Positions 6,275 to 17,840 of a stretch of DNA of 38,388 nucleotides are shown in pieces. Position 1 is the stretch's first letter, and every line of letters begins with the position of its first letter. The notes below the pieces were generated by a model. That model was not told where the DNA came from, ran no database searches, and saw only the letters and a list, made by a program, of their open reading frames with translations. The stretch comes from Chitinophagales bacterium (GTDB taxonomy: Bacteria; Bacteroidota; Bacteroidia; Chitinophagales; JADIYW01): contig JADLAJ010000111.1 of the NCBI GenBank assembly GCA_020848255.1, positions 1 through 38,388 of the forward strand. The letters run 5' to 3'. The translations under genes were made by a program, and so were the position numbers.

Positions 6275-7285
6275 ATGAGTGACTTACTTTATAAAATTGC
6301 ACAGGAACGCATCCTTATTCTAGACGGTGCAATGGGCACCATGATCCAGCGCTACAAACTGGAAGAAGAAGACTACCGCGGTGACAGATGGATAAATCAT
6401 TCACATCCATTAAAAGGAAATAACGATTTATTATCTATTACACGTCCGGAAATCATCAAAGAAATTCATCGTCAGTATTTTGAAGCAGGTGCAGATATTG
6501 TGGAAACCAACACCTTCAGCGGAACAACCATTGCACAAGCGGATTACCACCTTGAGGATGCTGTTTACGACATAAACTTTCAAAGCGCAAAAATAGCCAG
6601 AGAAGTGGCAGATGAAATGACAGCAAAAGAACCGCATAAACCGCGTTTTGTAGCGGGTGCTATGGGGCCAACTAACCGAACCTGTTCCATTTCTCCGGAT
6701 GTAAACGACCCGGGTTACCGTGCCGTTACCTTTGACCAACTGGTAGCCGCTTATTACGACCAGGCTAAAGCTTTGATTGAAGGTGGATCCGATTTATTAT
6801 TAATTGAAACCATTTTTGATACCCTGAATGCAAAAGCTGCTTTGTTTGCGGTACAGTCTTTATTTGAAGATATCGGCAGAGAGTATCCTGTTTCCATTTC
6901 TGGTACCATCACAGATGCCAGCGGCAGAACCTTAAGCGGACAAACCACGGAAGCCTTTTTAATTTCCCTGTCACACGTTCCCTTGTTTTCTATCGGCTTA
7001 AACTGTGCCTTGGGGGCAAAAGAATTGCGACCATATTTACAGATTCTGGCAAAAGAAGCACCTTTTTTTGTAAGTGCTTATCCAAACGCAGGATTGCCTA
7101 ATGAGTTTGGCGCTTATGACGAAACACCGGACATGATGGGTCAGCAAATTCGTGAGTTCTTGGAACTGGGATTAGTGAATATTTTAGGCGGATGCTGCGG
7201 TACCACACCTCCCCATATTAAACGCATTGCAGAAATAGCAAAAGAATACAAACCGAGAAAAATTGAAGAAAGCGTAATTGCATAA
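6275..7285 (+). CDS. metH: Methionine synthase, homocysteine-binding subunit (MetH N-terminal module)
   Basis: The 336-residue protein is the Zn-dependent homocysteine S-methyltransferase barrel corresponding to the first roughly 350 residues of one-piece MetH. It shows [10 protein letters not shown] at the N-terminus and the three Zn-binding Cys: GLNCALG (Cys244) and [10 protein letters not shown] (Cys307 and Cys308). These are almost the same positions as in the E. coli enzyme. It activates homocysteine for methylation from cob(III)alamin held by the partner protein encoded immediately downstream. Expression is expected to be under the S-box at 6083-6197. The stop at 7283-7285 is four bases before the next ATG, indicating translational coupling. 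The break falls exactly in the linker between modules, so this is a true gene split, not a frameshift. Confidence 0.95.
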
Positions 7286-7289
7286 TAGA

Positions 7290-9989
7290 ATGACAGCGAC
7301 AAATAATATTTTAAAATTAAGTGGTCTTGAACCGCTACTCGTTACGAAAGCATCTAACTTCATTAATATTGGCGAGCGAACCAACGTAACCGGCTCCAAA
7401 GCATTCTTAAAGATGATCAAAGAGGAACGCTTTGAAGATGCATTAGCGGTGGCGATGGATCAGGTGCGCGGCGGGGCACAGGTACTCGACGTAAACATGG
7501 ATGAAGGGATGATTGACGGCACCAAAGCGATGGTGCAATTTTTAAATCTGATTGCATCCGAACCGGAAATTTCGCGTATCCCGATTATGATTGACTCCTC
7601 CAAATGGGAGATAATCGAAGCCGGATTAAAATGTATACAAGGAAAAGGAATCGTGAATTCCATCAGCTTAAAAGGCGGTGAAGAAGATTTTATCCGTCAG
7701 GCAAAACTGATTAAAAAATATGGTGCTGCAACCGTTATCATGGCATTCGACGAAGACGGACAAGCCGACAGTTACGAACGTCGTATTGAAATCTGCCAGC
7801 GCAGTTACGATATCATGGTCAATGTGGTAAAATTCAATCCGAACGATATTATTTTCGACCCGAATATTTTTCCTGTCGCAACAGGGATGGATGAACACCG
7901 CAATAATGCACTTGATTTTTTCCGCGCCACCAAATGGATTCGCACGAATTTAAAAGGTGCGCATGTGAGCGGCGGCGTTTCCAATGTTTCCTTCTCTTTC
8001 AGAGGAAATAATATTGTGCGCGAAGCTATGCACTCGGCTTTTTTATACCACGCCATTAAAGAAGGTATGGATATGGGTATCGTAAATCCTACCATGCTGG
8101 AAGTTTACGACAACATCGAAAAAGGATTACTGGAGAGAGTGGAAGATGTTTTATTAAACAGAAGAGAAGATTCTACAGAACGCTTACTGGAATATGCGGA
8201 AACCGTAAAAGGAAGCGCCAAGAAAAAAGAAGAAGATTTATCCTGGAGAAATCAACCGGTGAACGAGCGACTGAAACACGCGCTGGTAAAAGGGATTGTA
8301 GACTTTATTGATGAAGATACGGAAGAATGCAGATTGCAGTTTGATAAACCATTAAGCGTGATTGAAGGTCCGCTGATGGATGGTATGAATGTAGTAGGTG
8401 ATTTATTCGGCGCCGGAAAAATGTTTTTACCACAAGTAGTAAAATCTGCACGTGTGATGAAAAAATCTGTCGCGTATTTATTGCCTTATATCGAAGCATC
8501 CAAGCAAGTAGGAGAGAGCAACAAGCAGGGAAAAATTTTATTGGCCACCGTAAAAGGTGACGTACACGACATTGGAAAAAATATTGTGGGTGTGGTGCTG
8601 GCTTGTAATAATTTCGAGATCATCGATTTAGGCGTGATGGTGCCTTGCGATAAAATTTTAGATGCAGCAGAAAAAGAAGACGTGGACATCATCGGCTTAA
8701 GCGGATTGATTACACCATCTTTAGATGAGATGGTTTTTGTGGCGAAAGAAATGAAACGCCGGGGCATGAAACAGCCTTTATTAATTGGTGGTGCCACAAC
8801 GTCTAAAATACATACTGCTGTAAAAATAGAACCGAACTACGACCAGCCTACGATACATGTGTTAGATGCATCGCGCAGTGTGCCGGTGGCCAGCAGTTTA
8901 CTAAATAAAGAAAGCCGCATCATTTTTGAAGCGGATATCCGTGCAGAATATGAAATGATGCGTAAACGCCACCAGGGCAAACAAATTGCGAAAGATTATA
9001 TCTCGATAGAAGAAGCGCGCAACAATAAGCTGAAATTAGATTTTACGAATTACACGCCGCCGAAGCCAACTTTTTTAGGAACAAAAGTTTTTGAAGATTA
9101 TGATTTAGCAGAACTTAGAAAATATATCGATTGGACGCCGTTTTTCTCTACCTGGGAATTGCATGGAAAATATCCGAATATTTTAGAAGACAAAGTGGTG
9201 GGCACAGAAGCCAAAAAATTATTTGCAGATGCAAATGCGTTACTGGATAAAATCATTGCGGAAAAATGGCTGACGGCAAAAGCGGTCGTTGGTTTCTTTG
9301 AAGCAAATTCTAATGTAGATGATATCGAATTAAAAAACATCGACCATCCGGAGTTATTAACGGATAAACGAAAAACCGTACTGCATCATCTGCGCCAGCA
9401 AAATAAGAAAGGCGAAGGCCTGCCGAATTATTGCCTGAGTGATTTTGTGGCACCTGCGGAAAGTGGTAAAGAGGATTATATCGGCGGATTTGCTGTCACG
9501 TCAGGTATTGGTATTGAAAAATGGCTAAAGCACTTTGAAGAAAACCACGACGATTATAATAAAATTATGCTGGCAGCTTTGGCCGACCGTTTAGCGGAAG
9601 CCTTTGCGGAACGCATGCATGAACGCGTGCGCACAGAATTCTGGAAATACACCACAGAAGAATCCCTGACCAGCGAAGAATTAATCAAAGAAAAGTATCA
9701 GGGCATCCGTCCGGCACCGGGCTATCCGGCTTGCCCTGACCATACCGAAAAACCAATGTTGTTTAAATTGCTGGATGCAGAAAAAAATGCAGGCATTAAC
9801 TTAACGGAAAGCAACGCCATGTATCCGGCATCCAGCGTGAGTGGTTGGTATTTCTCGCATCCCGACAGTAAATATTTCGGAATTGGAAAAATTGCAAAAG
9901 ACCAGGTAGAAGATTACGCTGCGCGTAAAAACATGAAAACAGAAGAAGTTGAACGATGGTTGCAGAGTGTGCTGAATTATGATGTGTAA
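7290..9989 (+). CDS. metH: Methionine synthase, pterin-, B12- and SAM-binding subunit (MetH C-terminal modules)
   Basis: The 899-residue protein starts at the ATG at 7290 ([12 protein letters not shown]); a TTG four codons upstream overlaps the preceding gene and is not needed. In order it carries the pterin-binding barrel ([16 protein letters not shown] from about residue 23), the cobalamin cap helices (about 320-410), the B12 Rossmann domain with DVHDIG at 424-429 (His426 is the lower axial ligand), and the SAM-dependent reactivation domain with [12 protein letters not shown] near residue 810. With the upstream barrel it methylates homocysteine from 5-methyl-THF. The C-terminus reads [10 protein letters not shown]. 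The last 23 bases recur exactly at 12482-12504, and weaker similarity extends further upstream (see the remnant at 12457-12504). Confidence 0.95.
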
Positions 9990-9995
9990 TAACCG

Positions 9996-11108
9996 ATGAA
10001 GTTCCGGCAACCATACATATTATTGCTTGTTACATCTTTGTTGTTATCTTTTTTTGTTTATTCCGTCTTTTCTATTGATGAAACTTTTGTCCTGAACCAA
10101 CATACCCAACTGGCAAACGATGCTGTTGATGCTAAAATAAATCATCCGCTTACGCACACTACTATTGATACCTCTAAAGAAATAAACGGTATAGAATTGC
10201 ACTTTGCAAATGCTGAGTACAGATTGTTGCTTCCTATAATTGCAAACATCTTAAACATAAACTGCAGAAAACTTATTTCCATTCAATTCTACCTGCTGCC
10301 TTTCTTTATATTTTTCATAACGCTATTTCTTTTTAAAGAGACTTCCGATATTTTATTGTCTGTTGCGCTAAGTTCTACATTCATTAGCAGCTACGTTTAT
10401 GTATGTTTTTTGCACCATTTTCCTTTTTTTGACGGATACGCTCTTTTAATGATGAGTATCCTTTTACTTATCAGAAATAAATATTTACTTTTTATTTTAT
10501 TATTAATGAGTTTCTTCTTAGATGAAAGAATGTTACTAAACAGTTTTCTGATTATCTTATTAAGAGTTTATTTACAAACTAAAAAAATTACATGTAGAAA
10601 TATTATCTCATTTATTCTACAGAATAAACTCTTCTTGTACGCCTGGATAATCTATCTTTTATTAAGATTAGTTTTAATCTTCACTTGTAATTTTTATGTT
10701 TCGCCTGCTTCTTATTTGTTCTTCAATAAAACAGCAATTATTAATAATATCAGAGGTGGAATTCTTGCTTTTTTTTACACTTATAAGTTATGGTGTGTAA
10801 TACTGTTATTCAATTTATATATCGCTATTAAAACAGAAAAGTATGAACTTTATATCATCTTATTCGGTTTGATTTTATTCATTATTGCCAGTGGCATATT
10901 CATGTTTGATTTTTCTCGAATCCAATTATATCTGTTGCCTTTTATGCTATTAAATATTTTTCTCTTCTCATCTTATTTCACAAATAAAAAAACAATAAGA
11001 TATTTAATATTAATTATCTTTTTAATTAACTTAGTGTTGCCTTCTAAAATAATTTATGGCGGGTTTAAGAATAAAACTCAAAACATTATCGCAATATGGA
11101 GCAAGTAA
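9996..11108 (+). CDS. Polytopic membrane protein of unknown function, GT-C-like in outline
   Basis: The 370-residue product is dominated by about nine or ten hydrophobic helices and is rich in Leu, Ile, Phe and Tyr, with visibly more AT than metH before it. An N-terminal signal-anchor (ILLLVTSLLLSFFVYSVF) is followed by a roughly 55-residue extracytoplasmic loop containing SIDETFVLNQH and many His and Asp residues. The arrangement of a first helix, a large acidic loop and many helices recalls GT-C glycosyltransferases or polymerases of surface glycans, but no definite motif confirms it. It begins six bases after the metH stop, and its 3' end overlaps the next gene by 13 bases, so the two are co-expressed. 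It is the first gene of the segment bounded by the duplicated metH tail. Confidence 0.6.
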   Translation: MKFRQPYILLLVTSLLLSFFVYSVFSIDETFVLNQHTQLANDAVDAKINHPLTHTTIDTSKEINGIELHFANAEYRLLLPIIANILNINCRKLISIQFYLLPFFIFFITLFLFKETSDILLSVALSSTFISSYVYVCFLHHFPFFDGYALLMMSILLLIRNKYLLFILLLMSFFLDERMLLNSFLIILLRVYLQTKKITCRNIISFILQNKLFLYAWIIYLLLRLVLIFTCNFYVSPASYLFFNKTAIINNIRGGILAFFYTYKLWCVILLFNLYIAIKTEKYELYIILFGLILFIIASGIFMFDFSRIQLYLLPFMLLNIFLFSSYFTNKKTIRYLILIIFLINLVLPSKIIYGGFKNKTQNIIAIWSK

Positions 11109-12460
11109 TAAACAAAAAGAAAGCAATATTCTATTCTTCATTTTTATTATTAATACTAAGTATTTTTATTTTCTCTTGCACTAAAGAAAGTTCTAATGCT
11201 ATCAATAGCAATGATGACAATATCAGCAATAATCCAGATACAGGTTTGGGTATTATAGGTGGAAAGCTGTGGGTATTGCATAACGATTATCTGGACCTTA
11301 CACAAAAAGGATTAAACACTGAAAATGGTACTGAACAATGGTCAAACGAAATAAATCCTAATAGTGGTATTTATAAAAGGCTACATGTAAACAATAATAA
11401 GATCTATGGTTTTAGAGAATCCATCCCGAGTAGTGGTATTTACTTGTTAAAAGCATTTTCATTTGACATTAATACAGGCACGGAGTCAGAAGTGATGACA
11501 TTTAATCAAAACTACCCAGGCAACAAGCTTGAAAAGTATTGCTTATTTGGCAGTTTTTTATACATTTATGGTTCTAAACGAGACAGCATTACCCGCCAAT
11601 ACACACATACTATCTCAAAATACTCGCTTTCCAGCAATGTTCCGATATGGACCATTACCGTTTCTCCTACTTTACCGTTAGGAACAGAACTGAGTTACAT
11701 GGCTGATATTATTGCAACAGATGATAAATTATATTGTGCAGTCAACTACACCGAAGAGACGGACACTTCTGCCAGAGAGTATGGGAAAATACATGTATAT
11801 AATATTTCAAATGGTGGCCTGGTGCTTACTTCAGAACATCATAGATTTATTGGTGAGTTTTTATATAGAAGCAGCAAACTGTACATAAATACACATAATT
11901 ATGAAGATGATAAGACGTACTATACTTGTATAAACAGTGGAAATGGCAGGCTCGTTTGGGAAAAGAACAAAGATGATTTTGCCGGCAACAATGTCCAATA
12001 TTCATCTATCGAAGGTAATACATTGGTCTTAGCTACTGTTAACCCTTATAATAGAAGTAATACTAAAATATTTGCCGTAGATAAAAATAACGGGAATACA
12101 TTATGGTCTTACAACTCACCTCGTTATAACTCACTTGTTACCATTGTAAACAACAAAGTATATTATTCCTCCGACACTACCTTATATTGCTTAAATGGCA
12201 CAAATGGAAGCGAGATTTGGAAATATAATTTCCAAATCTTGTATAGATCATATATTAGCACCGTACCAATAGTTGCAGATACAGCAGTATTTTTTGCTTC
12301 ATCAGGAATGACGTATGCTTTAAATAAAAATACAGGCCATAAAATTTGGGAGCAAGCCTATAATTATACACCTCGCAATATTTTACCGGGCACCAGGACT
12401 GTTCTTTTAACACTCCGTGATTATGTATATTTTCCCGGAGGTATTGTGGTGCATAAGTAG
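11096..12460 (+). CDS. PQQ-like beta-propeller lipoprotein (BamB-like repeats)
   Basis: The 454-residue product starts MEQVINKKKAIFYSSF and has a hydrophobic stretch ending in the lipobox-like FIFSC, predicting a lipoprotein with Cys28 as the modified residue. From about residue 55 it consists of repeated propeller blades with the PQQ/Trp-docking signature G-x-x-x-W: NTENGTEQWSNE, NSGNGRLVWEKN, DKNNGNTLWSYN, NGTNGSEIWKYN and NKNTGHKIWEQA. Such propellers act as binding scaffolds, as in BamB, or as surface proteins. No PQQ-dehydrogenase active-site residues are recognised. Its start overlaps the membrane-protein gene by 13 bases, suggesting a membrane protein-lipoprotein pair. Asn, Ser and Thr are frequent and the DNA is AT-rich. 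Confidence 0.75.
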   Translation: MEQVINKKKAIFYSSFLLLILSIFIFSCTKESSNAINSNDDNISNNPDTGLGIIGGKLWVLHNDYLDLTQKGLNTENGTEQWSNEINPNSGIYKRLHVNNNKIYGFRESIPSSGIYLLKAFSFDINTGTESEVMTFNQNYPGNKLEKYCLFGSFLYIYGSKRDSITRQYTHTISKYSLSSNVPIWTITVSPTLPLGTELSYMADIIATDDKLYCAVNYTEETDTSAREYGKIHVYNISNGGLVLTSEHHRFIGEFLYRSSKLYINTHNYEDDKTYYTCINSGNGRLVWEKNKDDFAGNNVQYSSIEGNTLVLATVNPYNRSNTKIFAVDKNNGNTLWSYNSPRYNSLVTIVNNKVYYSSDTTLYCLNGTNGSEIWKYNFQILYRSYISTVPIVADTAVFFASSGMTYALNKNTGHKIWEQAYNYTPRNILPGTRTVLLTLRDYVYFPGGIVVHK

Positions 12461-12504
12461 ATATCGAAAAATGGAAGCAGTGTGTGCTGAATTATGATGT
12501 GTAA
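12457..12504 (+). pseudogene. Remnant or second copy of a metH 3' end
   Basis: In the metH reading frame this stretch reads VDIEKWKQCVLNYDV followed by TAA. The end of MetH at 9945-9989 reads [15 protein letters not shown]. The last 23 bases (12482-12504) are identical to 9967-9989; over the 39 bases from 12466 there are five mismatches. Upstream of that only the protein level is similar, with conservative changes (Glu/Asp, Val/Ile, Arg/Lys). It has no start codon, overlaps the end of the propeller gene and is not a gene. It marks the right-hand border of the 9990-12504 segment. Confidence 0.8.
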
Positions 12505-12510
12505 AAAATT

Positions 12511-13020
12511 ATGGTAATAGATACTAATTTATTAATAAAGATATTTCCTCTATTATCTATTCCAATAGCTGGTCTAGCTGTATATTTTACTTATAAAAAC
12601 AGAGCTAGTAAGCATAGAGAATTAATCTATGATAAACAGTTTGAATTATGTTTAAGAATAAATCAAAAAATTATTGAAGCAGAAGTCGATATTACTGTAA
12701 TTGTTCAGAATCAAATATTAAATAAGGACCCTGAAGTTAAGGAAGCTCAAAATCGTTATGCAAAATCGTTACTTGAAATAGCTAATCTTTTAAATATGGA
12801 AGGAAGAATTTTTCTTCAAAATGAAATTCTCACTCAAACTTCCAATATTTTAAATGATTATTATAACCTTTTGCCTGAAATATTGAGTAATGAAAATAAC
12901 CTGCTAAACAAAGAAAATGTCTATAATAGACAATTAAATATTGTTAAATGGTTGAATGTTATACGTGAAAATTTTGGAATTGATACTTTATCAAAACAGA
13001 ATAGTAACATTATCAAATAA
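12511..13020 (+). CDS. Small membrane-anchored protein of unknown function
   Basis: I do not recognise the family. The 169-residue product has one N-terminal membrane segment (about residues 8-27, KIFPLLSIPIAGLAVYFTY) followed by a basic stop-transfer stretch (KNRASKHRE) and a mostly helical, Asn/Gln/Glu-rich cytoplasmic domain. That domain may form a coiled coil. There is no signal peptidase site, no Cys pattern and no enzymatic motif. It begins seven bases after the stop codon of the metH-tail remnant, so before the 9990-12504 segment arrived it may have lain directly downstream of metH. Base composition is as AT-rich as in the two preceding genes, so it may instead belong to the same acquired block. 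Confidence 0.55.
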   Translation: MVIDTNLLIKIFPLLSIPIAGLAVYFTYKNRASKHRELIYDKQFELCLRINQKIIEAEVDITVIVQNQILNKDPEVKEAQNRYAKSLLEIANLLNMEGRIFLQNEILTQTSNILNDYYNLLPEILSNENNLLNKENVYNRQLNIVKWLNVIRENFGIDTLSKQNSNIIK

Positions 13021-13089: not shown

Positions 13090-14376
13090 ATGTACAAAGA
13101 AATTGCTTACCAATCTGCTGAAGAAGCTTTATCCATTATAAAAAGCGGCGACCGCGTATATGTGCATGGTAGTGCCATGACACCGAATTTCCTGCTTGCT
13201 GAACTGGCAAAACAGGCTCCGCGTTTACAGAACGTAGAACTCACGTTTATTTCTGTATTGGGTGATATTGTGGTGGATCGTCCAGAATACGAAAACAATT
13301 TTCACATCAACTGTTTGTTTGTTAGCGACAGCGTGCGCCAGGCCGTTAACGATGGTCGTGCAGATTTTGTCCCGGTCTTTCTAAGTGATATTCCAGACCT
13401 TTTCAAAAACGGACAGCTTCCATTGGATGTAGCATTGATACAGGTTTCGCCGCCTGATAAACACGGCTATTGTTCTTTAGGTGTAAGTGTAGATATTGCC
13501 CGCGCTGCCGTCAGCACTGCCAGACATATTATTGCACAGGTAAATCCGAACGTACCGCGCACACTCGGCGACAGCATGATACACACCGACCGTATTCATG
13601 CGTTTGTGTATGCAGAAAACCCATTGCCTGTAGTGGACTACAGTACTAAAGTAGGAAAGGAAGAATTGCAAATTGGAAAATATATTGCAGAACTGATTGA
13701 CGATGGCAGCACTCTGCAAACCGGCATCGGAACCATTCCGGATGCAGTGCTGAAATCGTTGTACAACCATAAAAATCTAGGCATCCACACGGAAATGTGC
13801 AGCGATGGCATCATTGATTTATTTGAAAAAGACATCATCAATAATTCAAAAAAAATAATCCATCCATATAAAACGGTGACGGGTTTTGCCGTAGGCACTA
13901 AAAAGCTCTACGACTATGTTGACGACAATCCTGCCTTTGCTTTTCTGGATATTGATTTTGTTAACGACCCGCACATTATCAGTAAAAATCCGAAAGTGGT
14001 GGCCATCAACAGTGCCATTGAAGTAGATATCACGGGACAGGTTTGCGCAGACAGTATCGGTTCAAAACTGTTCAGCGGCATCGGCGGGCAAATGGATTTC
14101 ATTCGCGGCGCGGCGCTCAGTCAGGGCGGCAAACCTATCATTGCGCTTACTTCGCGCACCAAAAAAGGAGAGCCGCGTATTGTACCCTTTTTAAAACAAG
14201 GTGCAGGCGTGGTAACTACGCGCGGCCATGTACATTATATTGTAACAGAATTTGGTGTTGCTTTTTTATACGGAAAAAATCTTCGTCAGCGCGCCAAAGC
14301 ACTCATAGAAATTGCGCATCCTGATGATCGCGAACTGCTGGAAAAAGCCTATTGGGAACGTTTTATAAAATTCTGA
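13090..14376 (+). CDS. Acetyl-CoA hydrolase/transferase family CoA-transferase (4-hydroxybutyrate CoA-transferase-like)
   Basis: The 428-residue product matches the length of class I-type CoA-transferases of the Cat1/AbfT family. Visible elements are GDRVYVHGSAMTPN at the N-terminus, QVSPPDKHGYCSLG, the GIGTIPDA loop near 218, and HTEMCSDG near residue 235 with the catalytic Glu that forms the enzyme-CoA thioester. GIGGQMDFIRGA near 335 follows. It moves CoA between acetyl-CoA and another short carboxylate (acetate, butyrate, 4-hydroxybutyrate or propionate), in the cytoplasm. It stands alone between two unrelated genes. The presence of IcmF at 20420-23773 makes butyrate or isobutyrate a reasonable but unproven partner acid. 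GC content is visibly higher than in the genes just upstream. Confidence 0.88.
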   Translation: MYKEIAYQSAEEALSIIKSGDRVYVHGSAMTPNFLLAELAKQAPRLQNVELTFISVLGDIVVDRPEYENNFHINCLFVSDSVRQAVNDGRADFVPVFLSDIPDLFKNGQLPLDVALIQVSPPDKHGYCSLGVSVDIARAAVSTARHIIAQVNPNVPRTLGDSMIHTDRIHAFVYAENPLPVVDYSTKVGKEELQIGKYIAELIDDGSTLQTGIGTIPDAVLKSLYNHKNLGIHTEMCSDGIIDLFEKDIINNSKKIIHPYKTVTGFAVGTKKLYDYVDDNPAFAFLDIDFVNDPHIISKNPKVVAINSAIEVDITGQVCADSIGSKLFSGIGGQMDFIRGAALSQGGKPIIALTSRTKKGEPRIVPFLKQGAGVVTTRGHVHYIVTEFGVAFLYGKNLRQRAKALIEIAHPDDRELLEKAYWERFIKF

Positions 14377-14427
14377 CAGTTGCTGTTTCGGAATTCCGCA
14401 TCTTGAAAATTTTCCTATCTTCACTTT

Positions 14428-15522
14428 ATGTTAGACAAAGTACGCAGGATGTTTAAAATAGATATGCAGAAGTTGCGCTCTGCAGATTCATCGCATTTAT
14501 TTTGGATGGACTTAACCATGTTATTGATTGTCTTCATCAATTTGCTGTATTTGTTTTTCGGATTCTTATTTCAGTTTCAGCTTTTTAATTCATTTATACA
14601 GCACATCTCTCTTTCCTTTCATGACTGGTATGCCGCTAAAATTTATCCGGATGTTTTAAAATATGATTTGGTCTTTGTGGCCATTTACATTGCCGAACTC
14701 ATCTTCCGCTGGATACGCAGCATCTACCGTAAAAAATACGATAATTGGTGGTTTTATCCCTTTGTACACTGGTACGATGTAATTATGTGCATTCCGATTA
14801 TCAATGGGCTTAACTTTTTCGGGTTTATCCGTTTGTTTGGCTTGATATACCGCTTACAGCGTTTGGGTGTTTTTGATTTAACCAAAACGTTTGTATTCAA
14901 ACAGTCTGCTTTTGTTTCGGAAGTGGTGGTAGAAGAAGTGGCCGACCGCGTAATTGCCAAAATGATTACCATGGCACAGGAAGAGGTGCAGAAAGGTTCT
15001 CCTTTAGTGACAAAGATTGTTACCAATGTTATTAAACCTAAAGAAGATGCGATTGTAAATTACCTGACCAACCGTATCGGGGAAGCTATGAATATCTCTT
15101 ATTCGCAATACCGTTATGAATTAAAGATATACGTAGAGAAGATTATCAGCGAAGCCATTCTCGAAAACGATACGGTAGATAAGCTGAGATACATCCCGGG
15201 TTTAGGGAAGATTTTTCAGGAAACACTGGACAAAGCGGTGGCGGATGTTACCTTTAACACCATTGACAAACTGATGAAAGATATCATCGACCCGAACAAT
15301 ACCCGAGGCGTGAAAGAGGTTACGCACGGGCTGATTGAATCTTTCTTAGACAATGAACATCCTGAAGGCAAGGAGCTGAACAACATGATTGTGGGCATTG
15401 TATATGATTCGCTGGAAGAGGTAAAACATGCTGTTTTAATGAAAGAATGGAAAATAAAACAGAAACTGGAAGAAAAGCGAAAAACAGAAGAAAAGATTCG
15501 AGAAAAACAAAAAATTAACTAA
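14428..15522 (+). CDS. Membrane protein with a voltage-sensor-like N-terminal domain and long helical C-terminus
   Basis: The 364-residue product has four hydrophobic segments in the first 150 residues. The first spans about 28-50. The second (about 79-97) is VFVAIYIAELIFRWI with an embedded Glu. The third (about 112-128) is FVHWYDVIMCIPI with an Asp. The fourth is FIRLFGLIYRLQRLG with Arg at about 135, 142 and 145. This follows the S1-S4 layout of voltage-sensor domains, but no S5-pore-S6 follows. Residues about 155-330 are predicted helical and partly hydrophobic, with recurring VTKIV and VNYLTNRIGEA segments, and the last 30 residues are highly charged (KEWKIKQKLEEKRKTEEK). I do not know a named family. 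It could be a stand-alone sensor or proton-channel-like protein; this is inference from pattern only. A strong terminator follows. Confidence 0.6.
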   Translation: MLDKVRRMFKIDMQKLRSADSSHLFWMDLTMLLIVFINLLYLFFGFLFQFQLFNSFIQHISLSFHDWYAAKIYPDVLKYDLVFVAIYIAELIFRWIRSIYRKKYDNWWFYPFVHWYDVIMCIPIINGLNFFGFIRLFGLIYRLQRLGVFDLTKTFVFKQSAFVSEVVVEEVADRVIAKMITMAQEEVQKGSPLVTKIVTNVIKPKEDAIVNYLTNRIGEAMNISYSQYRYELKIYVEKIISEAILENDTVDKLRYIPGLGKIFQETLDKAVADVTFNTIDKLMKDIIDPNNTRGVKEVTHGLIESFLDNEHPEGKELNNMIVGIVYDSLEEVKHAVLMKEWKIKQKLEEKRKTEEKIREKQKIN

Positions 15523-15619
15523 TCAAAAATCACTTTGGCACGGGAATTGTTACTTAATTGATATCTTAATTGGTTTAGATAAAAGTTAAAAACATTTTCA
15601 TTTGGTTGGTTTAAAATAG

Positions 15620-15652
15620 TCCTGAGCGTGGTTGCTCAGGATTTTTATTTTT
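15620..15652. terminator. Hairpin terminator between convergent genes
   Basis: TCCTGAGC (15620-15627) pairs perfectly over eight bases with GCTCAGGA (15634-15641), with a six-base loop, and is followed by a T-rich stretch on the plus strand. It serves the gene ending at 15522. On the minus strand it lies just after the stop of the serine hydrolase and is preceded there by an A-run, so it may work both ways. Confidence 0.85.
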
Positions 15653-16895
15653 GCATTTCCAGTAAGCTATCTGAATTTAACTTCTTTGTCGTTTCGCTGC
15701 TGCCGTCGTCTTCGGTAGTACTTACTATGCCATCACCATATAAAATATCCCAGACTGCCTGAATTTTGTAAACACTTTGGCTATAGTGGTTGCTTAAAAT
15801 AATAACCGTTGTTTTATCGCTGATTTTTCGGTTAAAGACAGAATTGTAACTGTGCCACCATCCGTTATGATAAATCAAACGTGTTCCATCCGGCTGGTCG
15901 TTCATACGCCATCCCAATCCGTAATTTTTGTTACCTGCTTTTTCAAAGCTTTGCGGCGTAAAAGCCAGACCTAAAATTTCCGAGCGGATAAATTTTCCTG
16001 AATACAGTGCCTGATCCCATTTGTACAAATCCTGCACGGTACTGTAAATTCCTTTGTCGCCCATCACGCCATCCGTATAAACAATTTCATCTTCCAGCCA
16101 GCGAGAACCCTTGTAGCCCTTAGTAGCTGATGGTCGTGTACTCAGTGGGTCGTAATACCAGGTATCCAGCATACCAAGCGGAATAAAAATATTCTGATGC
16201 ATGAAATCACAAAACGGAACCCCGGAAACTTTTTCTACAATCAGCGTCAGTAAAACGAAGTTGGTATTGTTGTACCTGAAATGGGTATCCGGTGCATTCA
16301 GCGCTTTGGGTTTGAATTTATACATCATCTTCAGCACATCCTCATTCGACATAAACAGTTTTTTATTCTTCCAGTATTCTTCGGAAAAATTTAAATAGTT
16401 GGGCAAGCCTGAGCGGTGATTCAGCAGCATTCTAATGGTAATTCCCTTGTATGGGAAACCAGGGAAATATTTTTCCAGTGTATCATCCAGCGACAACATA
16501 TTTTGCTGCAGCAAAAGCATAATGGCACCGGCTGTAAATGTTTTGGAAGTAGAGGCAATCTGAAAAGAAGAACGTGGTGTCAGCCTTTCCTGTGTTGCGT
16601 AATTTTTGTAGCCATAGTAACGCTCAAAAATGGGTGTTCCTTTGTAAGAAATTAAAACTGAACCGTTAAATCCGTTGAGCTTTACTTTGTCTTCAAAATA
16701 ACAATCAAGTGCGTGTATTTTTTTTACAATATCGGTATCCTGTAAATTAATTTTTTCTTTATCGTGATTCTGATACAGCGCAGGATTTACTTCCGGCTGT
16801 ATAAATCCGGTAGGTGTTCTGTTTCCGTTATGCTGACAATACGTTAAACACAAGCCGCATAACAATATATATAACGTCAAAAATAATTTCTTCAT
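15645..16895 (-). CDS. Serine hydrolase of the class C beta-lactamase / DD-peptidase family, lipoprotein
   Basis: The start is placed at the ATG at 16895, which opens with a proper signal sequence (MKKLFLTLYILLCGLCLTYC; lipobox Cys20). An ATG 36 bases upstream would add 12 charged residues in front of the signal and is unlikely. The 416-residue protein has the three penicillin-recognising motifs: S115-T-S-K118, the Tyr-x-Asn of FRYNNTNF near residue 220, and HNG in LIYHNGWWH near 340. Members include esterases, D-amino-acid peptidases and class C beta-lactamases. With a lipid anchor and no neighbouring ampR, an envelope esterase or peptidase is more likely than a resistance enzyme. It is divergent from the DinB gene. 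Confidence 0.87.
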   Translation of the reverse strand: MKKLFLTLYILLCGLCLTYCQHNGNRTPTGFIQPEVNPALYQNHDKEKINLQDTDIVKKIHALDCYFEDKVKLNGFNGSVLISYKGTPIFERYYGYKNYATQERLTPRSSFQIASTSKTFTAGAIMLLLQQNMLSLDDTLEKYFPGFPYKGITIRMLLNHRSGLPNYLNFSEEYWKNKKLFMSNEDVLKMMYKFKPKALNAPDTHFRYNNTNFVLLTLIVEKVSGVPFCDFMHQNIFIPLGMLDTWYYDPLSTRPSATKGYKGSRWLEDEIVYTDGVMGDKGIYSTVQDLYKWDQALYSGKFIRSEILGLAFTPQSFEKAGNKNYGLGWRMNDQPDGTRLIYHNGWWHSYNSVFNRKISDKTTVIILSNHYSQSVYKIQAVWDILYGDGIVSTTEDDGSSETTKKLNSDSLLEMQK

Positions 16896-17045
16896 CTTCT
16901 TCTTTTGTTGCTTCAAATCTGCTTCTGACATGGTATCAAATCAATAGCCGTAAAAGTATGTTTTTTGTGAAAGAATGTTATCAGAGAGATATTACCATTA
17001 CGTTGAAAACAAATTTTAGTTTATTTTTACAAAAAAGAAAAGCGA

Positions 17046-17555
17046 ATGGAATTTAATATCATTAAAAGTTTGACGAATGAGTATACGCATGAATGTGCAA
17101 GTACCCGTAAATTATTAGAAAGAGTACCGATGGATAAACTATCGTGGAAGCCGCATGAAAAATCGATGACATTAGAACAACTGGCCACGCATGTGGCAGA
17201 AATACCGGAATGGGTACCTATTACTTTAGAGCAACCAGAACTGGATTTTTCAAAAGGCGGATATAAACCAAAATCCGTTGCCACAACAGAGGATTTATTA
17301 AAAATCCACGACGATTGCGTTGCAGCAGCGTTGCAATCCATACAAAATACCAGTGCTGAAATCTTGGTGAACGAAACCTGGACGATGCGTAATGGAGAAA
17401 CCATTTATTTTACCATGCCGAAAATTGCGGTATTGCGCAGCTTCACCTTTAACCATATTTACCATCACCGCGGACAGCTGACCGTATATTTGCGTTTATT
17501 AGGTGTGCCGGTACCGGGTATGTACGGACCAACTGCCGATGAGCAGGGCATGTAA
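17046..17555 (+). CDS. DinB-family protein (four-helix bundle, putative metal-dependent transferase)
   Basis: The 169-residue protein has the DinB/YfiT fold signature: LSWKPHEKSMTLEQLATHVAEIPEW near residues 35-58, with the first metal His, and the late FNHIYHHRGQLTVYLRLLGVPVP near 135-158, with the other two. DinB-type proteins include mycothiol-, bacillithiol- and glutathione-dependent transferases. The thiol cofactor in this organism cannot be deduced. The start MEFNIIKSLTNEY at 17046 is the first ATG in frame and matches the usual length. It is a single-gene transcript, ending in the bidirectional terminator just downstream. Confidence 0.88.
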   Translation: MEFNIIKSLTNEYTHECASTRKLLERVPMDKLSWKPHEKSMTLEQLATHVAEIPEWVPITLEQPELDFSKGGYKPKSVATTEDLLKIHDDCVAAALQSIQNTSAEILVNETWTMRNGETIYFTMPKIAVLRSFTFNHIYHHRGQLTVYLRLLGVPVPGMYGPTADEQGM

Positions 17556-17585
17556 TTAATGAGTTGATGAAATAACTAGATAATA

Positions 17586-17617
17586 AAAAAGCCGCAATTT
17601 TATATTGCGGTTTTTTT
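17586..17617. terminator. Bidirectional hairpin terminator
   Basis: CCGCAAT (17592-17598) pairs with ATTGCGG (17604-17610) across a five-base loop, extended by an A-run on the left and a T-run on the right. It can end both the DinB transcript and the minus-strand ferredoxin transcript, whose stop lies at 17616-17618. Confidence 0.87.
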
Positions 17618-17840
17618 ATTCTAAAATTTGTATGATATTCACCGGGCAGGCTTTGGCTGCTTTGAGATTGCTATCCAGTTCATCTTCTCTGACCTTTACG
17701 CTCCAGAATCCTTTTTTGTCTTTACTTTCCAGCAGCACACTTTTTCCATCTTTACGGCTCATGCGCCAGCGCTGCGGAGCCAGTTCCACACAATAATTGC
17801 AGCCAATGCATTTTGCTCTTTGCTGTATGATGGTAATCAC
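17616..17840 (-). CDS. Small ferredoxin, single 4Fe-4S (or 3Fe-4S) cluster
   Basis: The 74-residue protein has Cys11, Cys14 and Cys17 in CIGCNYC and Cys65 in ACPVNII. This is the CxxCxxC...CP arrangement of one-cluster ferredoxins. It carries single electrons in the cytoplasm. It begins six bases after the stop of the U32-family gene upstream on the minus strand, so the two form one transcript. The pairing suggests that the ferredoxin serves the U32 protein, which is an iron-sulfur protein in the TrhP branch. A terminator hairpin follows its stop codon. Confidence 0.9.
   Translation of the reverse strand: MITIIQQRAKCIGCNYCVELAPQRWRMSRKDGKSVLLESKDKKGFWSVKVREDELDSNLKAAKACPVNIIQILE

Follow-up and report, generated by a model that had tools for sequence, protein, structure and literature searches.

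Why does the 3′ end of a methionine synthase gene occur a second time downstream of that gene, and how did the DNA between the two ends arrive there? The question is raised by metH in a Chitinophagales genome (assembly GCA_020848255.1), on contig JADLAJ010000111.1, positions 1 to 38,388 of which make up the window, the whole stretch of 38,388 nucleotides (nt) analyzed here. The anatomy seen at metH, an intact gene followed by cargo and then by a copy of the gene's own tail, is also found behind four other genes of two congeners, G006 and G005. The best explanation is that the metH block is one case of a kind of insertion that recurs in this Chitinophagales genus, a pattern that is more interesting than metH as an integration site.

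The metH tail and the block behind it

The metH gene (7278..9989, + strand) encodes a cobalamin-dependent methionine synthase and is intact, with the Pfam families Met_synt_B12 (3.2e-129), Pterin_bind and B12-binding and the activation domain; its last 199 amino acids (aa) are 82–88% identical in six of seven congeners. Its tail at 9941..9989 (+), which we call copy 1, recurs at 12456..12504 (+), copy 2, with 81% identity over 52 nt (9941-9992 against 12456-12507). The last 23 nt are identical (9967-9989 and 12482-12504), each ending in TAA, so that the original prediction of an exact recurrence 2.5 kb downstream is borne out, as is its count of five mismatches in the last 39 nt, which our site list reproduces. 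Nor is the 23-mer a genome-wide repeat, the finding that had been named as fatal to the prediction: allowing up to three mismatches, it occurs twice in the 3.13-Mb assembly, a fragmented one of 381 contigs and 86.6% completeness. About 1.4e-9 chance copies would be expected in the window on one strand.

The two tails differ at 9 of 48 nt, and all nine differences fall within the first 25 of the 48 positions (hypergeometric P = 0.0012). At seven of the nine differing sites the majority of six congeners agrees with copy 1, the functional metH 3′ end; copy 2 is a detached second end. Six codons are changed, among them E>V, L>K and S>C. Because all six changes are nonsynonymous, with none synonymous, copy 2 looks like a drifting detached copy and not like the product of conservative evolution. 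The claims that its changes were mostly conservative, and that it diverged as a functional metH tail, are thus not sustained. The constant block at the end of the tail is either the place of recombination or was kept because it lies just ahead of the next gene's start.

Two cargo genes lie between the tails, both on the + strand. The first (9996..11108, GC content 0.28) encodes 370 aa, a membrane protein by sequence, with no match in Pfam, NCBIfam or PADLOC. It has no orthologue in seven congeners, and matches 2 of 59 relatives at 23–26% identity, one of them the congener G007 (23%, on another contig). The second (11096..12460, GC 0.34) encodes a PQQ/BamB-type propeller protein of 454 aa (Pfam PQQ_2, 3.7e-15), with weak matches in 7 of the 59 relatives, none of them among the seven congeners, and none in 395 other genomes of the order at E<=1e-12. 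Its TAG stop (12458-12460) falls in the first bases of the metH repeat. The propeller protein may have been cut at this junction, because the TAG (window 12456-12461) may derive from the metH tail read in a different frame; close to this position G002 and G007 carry AAAGTAGAA.

Six nucleotides past copy 2 begins an orphan gene (12511..13020, +, 169 aa, GC 0.25) with no family above curated cut-offs. It is without a match in all 59 relatives and has three weak partial matches, at 32–33% identity, among the 395 other genomes of the order. This gene, the only one of the block tried there, found no match in phage and plasmid collections and none that was confirmed in viral contigs. With metH at a GC content of 0.42, the DNA between the tails is more AT-rich than metH, as predicted, and the AT-rich stretch reaches 13020, past copy 2. 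Because this stretch, which lacks congener orthologues, extends so far, copy 2 lies inside the foreign block: the block covers about 9990-13020, as if two insertions had occurred in series. No integrase or recombinase was found among the three open reading frames (ORFs) of 9996-13020 with Pfam, NCBIfam and PADLOC, the remaining window not having been searched; to that extent the predicted lack of an integrase holds.

Does metH itself attract insertions? A second tail is absent downstream of metH in all 16 relatives examined, six congeners and ten others, out of 52 that match metH. It is absent too from the 76 of 80 other loci that were testable, where the best match is 24/36 against 31/36 in the window; the other four were dropped, one lacking the C-terminus, one running off the contig end and two having less than 300 nt downstream. 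The sequence behind metH is only about 1.8 kb long in G003 and 3.3 kb in G007. On the absence of a second tail in these 16 relatives and 76 loci we rejected metH as a recurrent integration hot spot, and with it the expectation that some relatives would have other cargo between metH and a tail copy. The expected empty site, the metH TAA directly followed by the 12511 gene, was not seen either, because the latter has no match in any of the 59 relatives. What stands of the idea that DNA integrated at the 3′ end of a gene and restored it is a foreign block behind an intact metH, framed by a second tail; the recurrent site does not stand.

In G005, metH is followed at once by a 676-aa gene on the opposite strand, and in G006 a 334-aa gene separates metH from what appears by eye to be the same 676-aa gene. 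These neighbors, compared by eye, show that the flank of metH is variable within the genus where no tail copy is present. In the window the block is followed by an acetyl-CoA hydrolase/transferase-like gene (13090..14376, +, GC 0.45, by family match), the last part of which, with the genes that follow, is colinear with G007 from 13960. The G007 contig starts inside this gene, and metH of G007 lies elsewhere. Next comes a gene without a Pfam family (14428..15522, +), which is directly behind metH in G002; in G001 the metH neighbor is the 15645 gene. Some of the relative genomes are incomplete (G007, 85%).

Four further gene ends and their empty sites

The starting point was a background count of gene tails that recur downstream, which revealed the mfd case of G005. 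We took ORFs of at least 100 aa whose last 30 nt recur at 25/30 or better within 12 kb downstream. The genus sample of 1.90 Mb (G000, G006, G005, G002 and pieces of G001, G003 and G007; 1549 ORFs) gave 11 such ORFs, five of them clean: metH, a fadJ-like gene, lpd, an M20 peptidase gene and mfd. Of the remaining six, two make up one doubtful case, two are tandem paralogues and two lie in a repeat-rich region.

As controls on the same 1549 ORFs, gene starts compared with upstream sequence gave one match (53 nt apart) and mid-gene segments compared with downstream sequence gave two, one a tandem paralogue and one repeat-rich. A family sample of 94 kb with 71 ORFs yielded no tail, start or mid-gene match, and 1.46 Mb from other Bacteroidota (1094 ORFs) yielded four tail matches, none clean, three start and two mid-gene matches. 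A direct-repeat scan of part of the sampled sequence recovered these gene-end repeats and, at gene starts of the genus, a single pair (L183, 207 nt, spaced by 231 nt); in the other Bacteroidota, such repeats touched gene starts and gene ends about equally often.

The candidates that were set aside in the genus are L166 (tandem paralogues, 36% identity), G006 565499-566476 (mid-gene duplicated too) and the two G006 tail matches at 202-205 kb, in the repeat-rich region. Clusters of short palindromic repeats of the GGTTCGTG..CACGAACC type occur on G006 contig C13 at about 178.9-180.4, 201.9-203.1 and 256.8-257.1 kb, and an ORF within one of them (202154-202714) is REP-associated transposase-like by eye only. 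The doubtful case is L237 on contig C2 of G005 (about 14096-17710), where a 69-nt repeat that spans the stop of a 507-aa gene appears again 2086 nt downstream, on the far side of a GH5-type glycosidase gene; we kept it apart as the repeat passes the stop by about 40 nt and runs of N in the contig make its assembly doubtful. In the other Bacteroidota we discarded L122 (a tandem copy), L110 (59-nt spacing), L136 (the copy is the end of the next ORF) and L143 (the duplicated stretch reads to us like a tRNA).

Two of the clean cases besides metH are in G006, both on a 980-kb contig. A fadJ-like gene, matched by the NCBIfam FadJ/FadB models below their cut-offs, is followed by DUF4160 and DUF2442 genes in 522 nt of cargo and a tail copy with 2 differences in 45 nt; lpd (TIGR01350, above cut-off) is followed by HicA and HicB-like genes in 536 nt and a tail copy with 8 differences in 45 nt. 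The other two are in G005. Its M20 peptidase gene has 604 nt of cargo with DUF4258 and MqsA-like genes, the MqsA match scoring 19.9 bits under a Pfam cut-off of 30, and a tail copy with 4 differences in 57 nt. At mfd (L038, on the 106-kb contig C44, about 13870-15164 on the contig minus strand) the exact 72-nt tail recurs 874 nt downstream, past a small ORF without a family and a PIN gene (Pfam); a second PIN-domain gene, on the opposite strand, lies behind the tail copy, giving two modules in series. In all five clean cases the cargo is on the gene's strand and the tail copy ends at the stop. There is no transposase among the cargo proteins scanned for families, and no motif shared by the five tails was seen by eye, no motif search having been run.

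Are there matching sites without cargo? Among the genus orthologues the tail copy is confined to its owner genome, being present at one of eight fadJ loci and one of seven loci each for lpd, mfd and M20. Only 266 nt of downstream sequence were available for lpd in G004 and 32 nt for mfd in G002, and eight distant lpd-like matches (41–46% identity) and one truncated M20 match at a contig end (L281) were not used. For fadJ, lpd and M20 the native flank adjoins copy 2; for mfd it follows only past the second PIN gene.

At fadJ, the sequence that follows copy 2 recurs in G004, starting 121 nt past the stop (77%), and in G005, starting at 519 nt (74%). A hairpin that could mark the native terminator forms less than 80 nt past the gene in G003, G004 and both G000 copies, and G006 has one past copy 2; terminator scans listed none on the gene's strand at the fadJ flanks. 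Because the terminator is unlisted and the further genes match only in G004 and G005, the fadJ empty site rests on these two genomes. At lpd, the 199-aa gene (no Pfam family) behind copy 2 in G006 lies directly behind lpd in G004, from 7 nt (70%), and G003 has by eye only a HicB remnant behind lpd. At M20, dnaG (Pfam) follows copy 2 in G005 and is found behind M20 in five of six congeners, within 30 nt in G003 and G001 and further off in G006, G002 and G000; in G006 a DUF4258 remnant (by eye) lies between the two genes, and in G007 dnaG is not within 839 nt of M20. At mfd, the SIMPL-domain gene behind the second PIN gene of G005 is directly behind mfd in G006 and G003, and G004 has a PIN-like stretch there (47% over 62 aa). 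From these flank comparisons it follows that cargo comes and goes at one junction, and that copy 2 adjoins its native side.

The tails also bear on age. With 0 differences in 72 nt at mfd, 2 in 45 at fadJ, 4 in 57 at M20, 8 in 45 at lpd and 9 in 48 at metH, the copies seem by sequence comparison to differ in age and to have their origin in the host species or close to it. Copy 2 is clearly nearer to its own gene than to that of any congener in mfd, fadJ and M20, and only just so in metH (9 against 10). These comparisons are without gaps, which makes congeners with another tail length look too distant. The congener majority sides with copy 1 by 7:2 in metH and with copy 2 by 6:2 in lpd, for which a cross-species origin of the copy is possible.

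Proposed displacement by recombination and competing explanations

From the duplications and the empty sites we infer recombination-driven displacement at gene ends, here at housekeeping genes, and put the probability of this mechanism at about one half. Cargo would enter between the gene's stop codon and its native downstream flank, in an event that would leave two copies of the gene's last few dozen nucleotides. The upstream copy would keep the gene intact, and the downstream copy would be a leftover that drifts. The DNA would enter through RecA-type recombination and need no integrase of its own. In one version a circle bearing the gene tail and the cargo would integrate through one crossover within the tail; in the other, a linear fragment would recombine by homology in the gene on one side and be joined illegitimately near the old tail on the other, displacing that tail downstream. 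At the junctions the gene side is continuous and the side between cargo and copy 2 is abrupt.

A number of observations weigh against this account. No donor, circle or strain series was seen. The cargo starts 6–29 nt past the gene stop in four of five cases (216 nt in mfd) and its last stop lies 0–25 nt ahead of copy 2 in all five, so that the edges are more precise than random joining predicts. The tail copies are short, 45–72 nt as delimited and 28–77 nt by a stricter repeat scan, and their short, even length counts against it because RecA crossovers, or fragments with random ends, should give overlaps that are longer and vary more. At lpd, copy 2 has fewer differences from G004 and G005 (6 and 7) than from its own gene (8), and metH copy 1 is nearer to G002 and G007 (5 and 6) than to copy 2 (9). 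The fadJ flank is not within 1.5 kb in the other five of seven congener loci, and the lpd flank is unmatched in four of six, within the sequence examined. In G005, lpd is followed by HicAB-like genes without a tail copy and then by the 199-aa gene, so tail copies are either lost fast or added later. The division of matches into clean and not clean was a judgment made after seeing them. Finally, five clean tails among 1549 ORFs of the genus against none among 1165 others gives P = 0.07, and four among 1548, without the window case, gives P = 0.14; specificity for the genus or lineage is therefore not significant.

A bolder version of the displacement account is possible, if doubtful. The units would be cassettes without an integrase, each directed to the 3′ end of a housekeeping gene by the copy of that gene's tail that it carries; they would ride the host transcript, could be excised without a scar via the two tails, and would have mainly toxin-antitoxin-like pairs as passengers. 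Integron gene cassettes are compact, hold one or two genes, often toxin-antitoxin, and stand in an array. The cargo described here is like them in its compact one or two genes, often toxin-antitoxin-like, and unlike them in that single insertions stand behind different genes and not in an array.

Less credible than displacement, and unlikely in our view, is a sequence-independent insertion machinery that is not encoded in the cargo. It would duplicate a few dozen nucleotides of target, gene ends being selected, and the copies would be identical at birth and then drift. The fairly narrow range of copy lengths and the precise edges would suit such a process, as would compact cargo on the gene's strand and the lack of a shared tail motif by eye. 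So would the mfd copies, identical over 72 nt where G006 and G003 differ by 12–13 nt. A right edge at the stop is hard to obtain by random targeting, though selection for an intact gene could contribute, and there are only five cases. We know of no bacterial insertion machinery that duplicates its target and selects gene ends in this way, which counts against this reading.

For the metH locus alone, copy 2 could be the remnant of a second or earlier metH, tandem or replaced, that has been deleted, and not an insertion product. Such a history has some precedent in G005, the assembly of which holds two metH loci, one intact. The second (L156 = L075, contig C59, JAGNZZ010000060.1, 6,781 nt, ending inside the gene) has 97% protein identity to the window over residues 7-723, and could be a second gene copy or a binning contaminant from a species near that of the window; the latter would remove the precedent. 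The upstream similarity also stops at the end of the PQQ gene, leaving only about 49 nt, and fadJ, lpd, mfd and M20 would go unexplained, so we think this history improbable.

Hardly better placed, and a little less probable still, is a classical integrase element. Integrase elements target gene 3′ ends and restore the gene. Here a tyrosine recombinase would have acted at the metH 3′ end, with the copies as attL and attR and the integrase lost or acting in trans. The topology fits, as a direct repeat of the gene end frames the cargo and the reading frame is restored, and the identical 23-nt block could be the crossover core. Unlike such elements, the block has no integrase among its three ORFs and a small cargo, no tail copy was found behind metH in the 16 relatives or 76 other loci, and like anatomy occurs at five gene tails that are unrelated and, by eye, have no core in common. 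Very improbable is an origin of the repeat in chance similarity or in a chimeric assembly of two strains: the window assembly is fragmented and a 23-nt repeat can mislead short k-mer assembly, but the chance expectation is about 1e-9, the fadJ, lpd and mfd cases lie on contigs of 980 and 106 kb, and congeners have matching empty sites.

Known displacement systems and the meaning of the pattern

Each of the two routes has been proposed before for toxin loci. For Rhs C-terminal displacement, Jackson et al. 2009 (PMC2935791) propose homologous recombination with circular intermediates. As there, an intact gene is followed by acquired sequence and then by a dissociated 3′ fragment, an order seen at metH, fadJ, lpd, mfd and M20. 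Whereas the attached and the displaced C-terminus in Rhs are dissimilar tips of a variable gene, the tails here are homologous, with 0–9 differences in 45–72 nt; both encode nearly the same 15–24 residues at the end of a housekeeping enzyme, behind which the cargo forms a module of its own.

Effector displacement in the type VI secretion system of Vibrio cholerae is attributed, in PMC5361080, perhaps to homology-facilitated illegitimate recombination. The likeness extends to an upstream homology anchor, non-homologous cargo, an old 3′ end moved downstream and serial events at one place. In that system the old effector is replaced and the immunity gene kept, whereas here the event leaves the host gene unaltered, with a short tail as the sole remnant. 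In E. coli and two other species, small variable segments have been ascribed largely to illegitimate recombination, and 10–18% of them are flanked by direct repeats (PMC2884548).

In the open-licence literature searched, no title or abstract retrieved describes cargo that has behind it a copy of the preceding housekeeping gene's 3′ end. To our knowledge, it is an open question how chromosomal toxin-antitoxin modules and orphan genes enter between core genes without a visible mobile element. The cases reported here suggest a repeated way of adding genes without breaking the host gene. Tail copies of measurable divergence, together with empty sites in close relatives, make single insertion events readable, each in its place of entry, its rough age, which of the copies is constrained, and its decay. 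Should other lineages show the pattern too, it would amount to a general way of gaining genes on a small scale.

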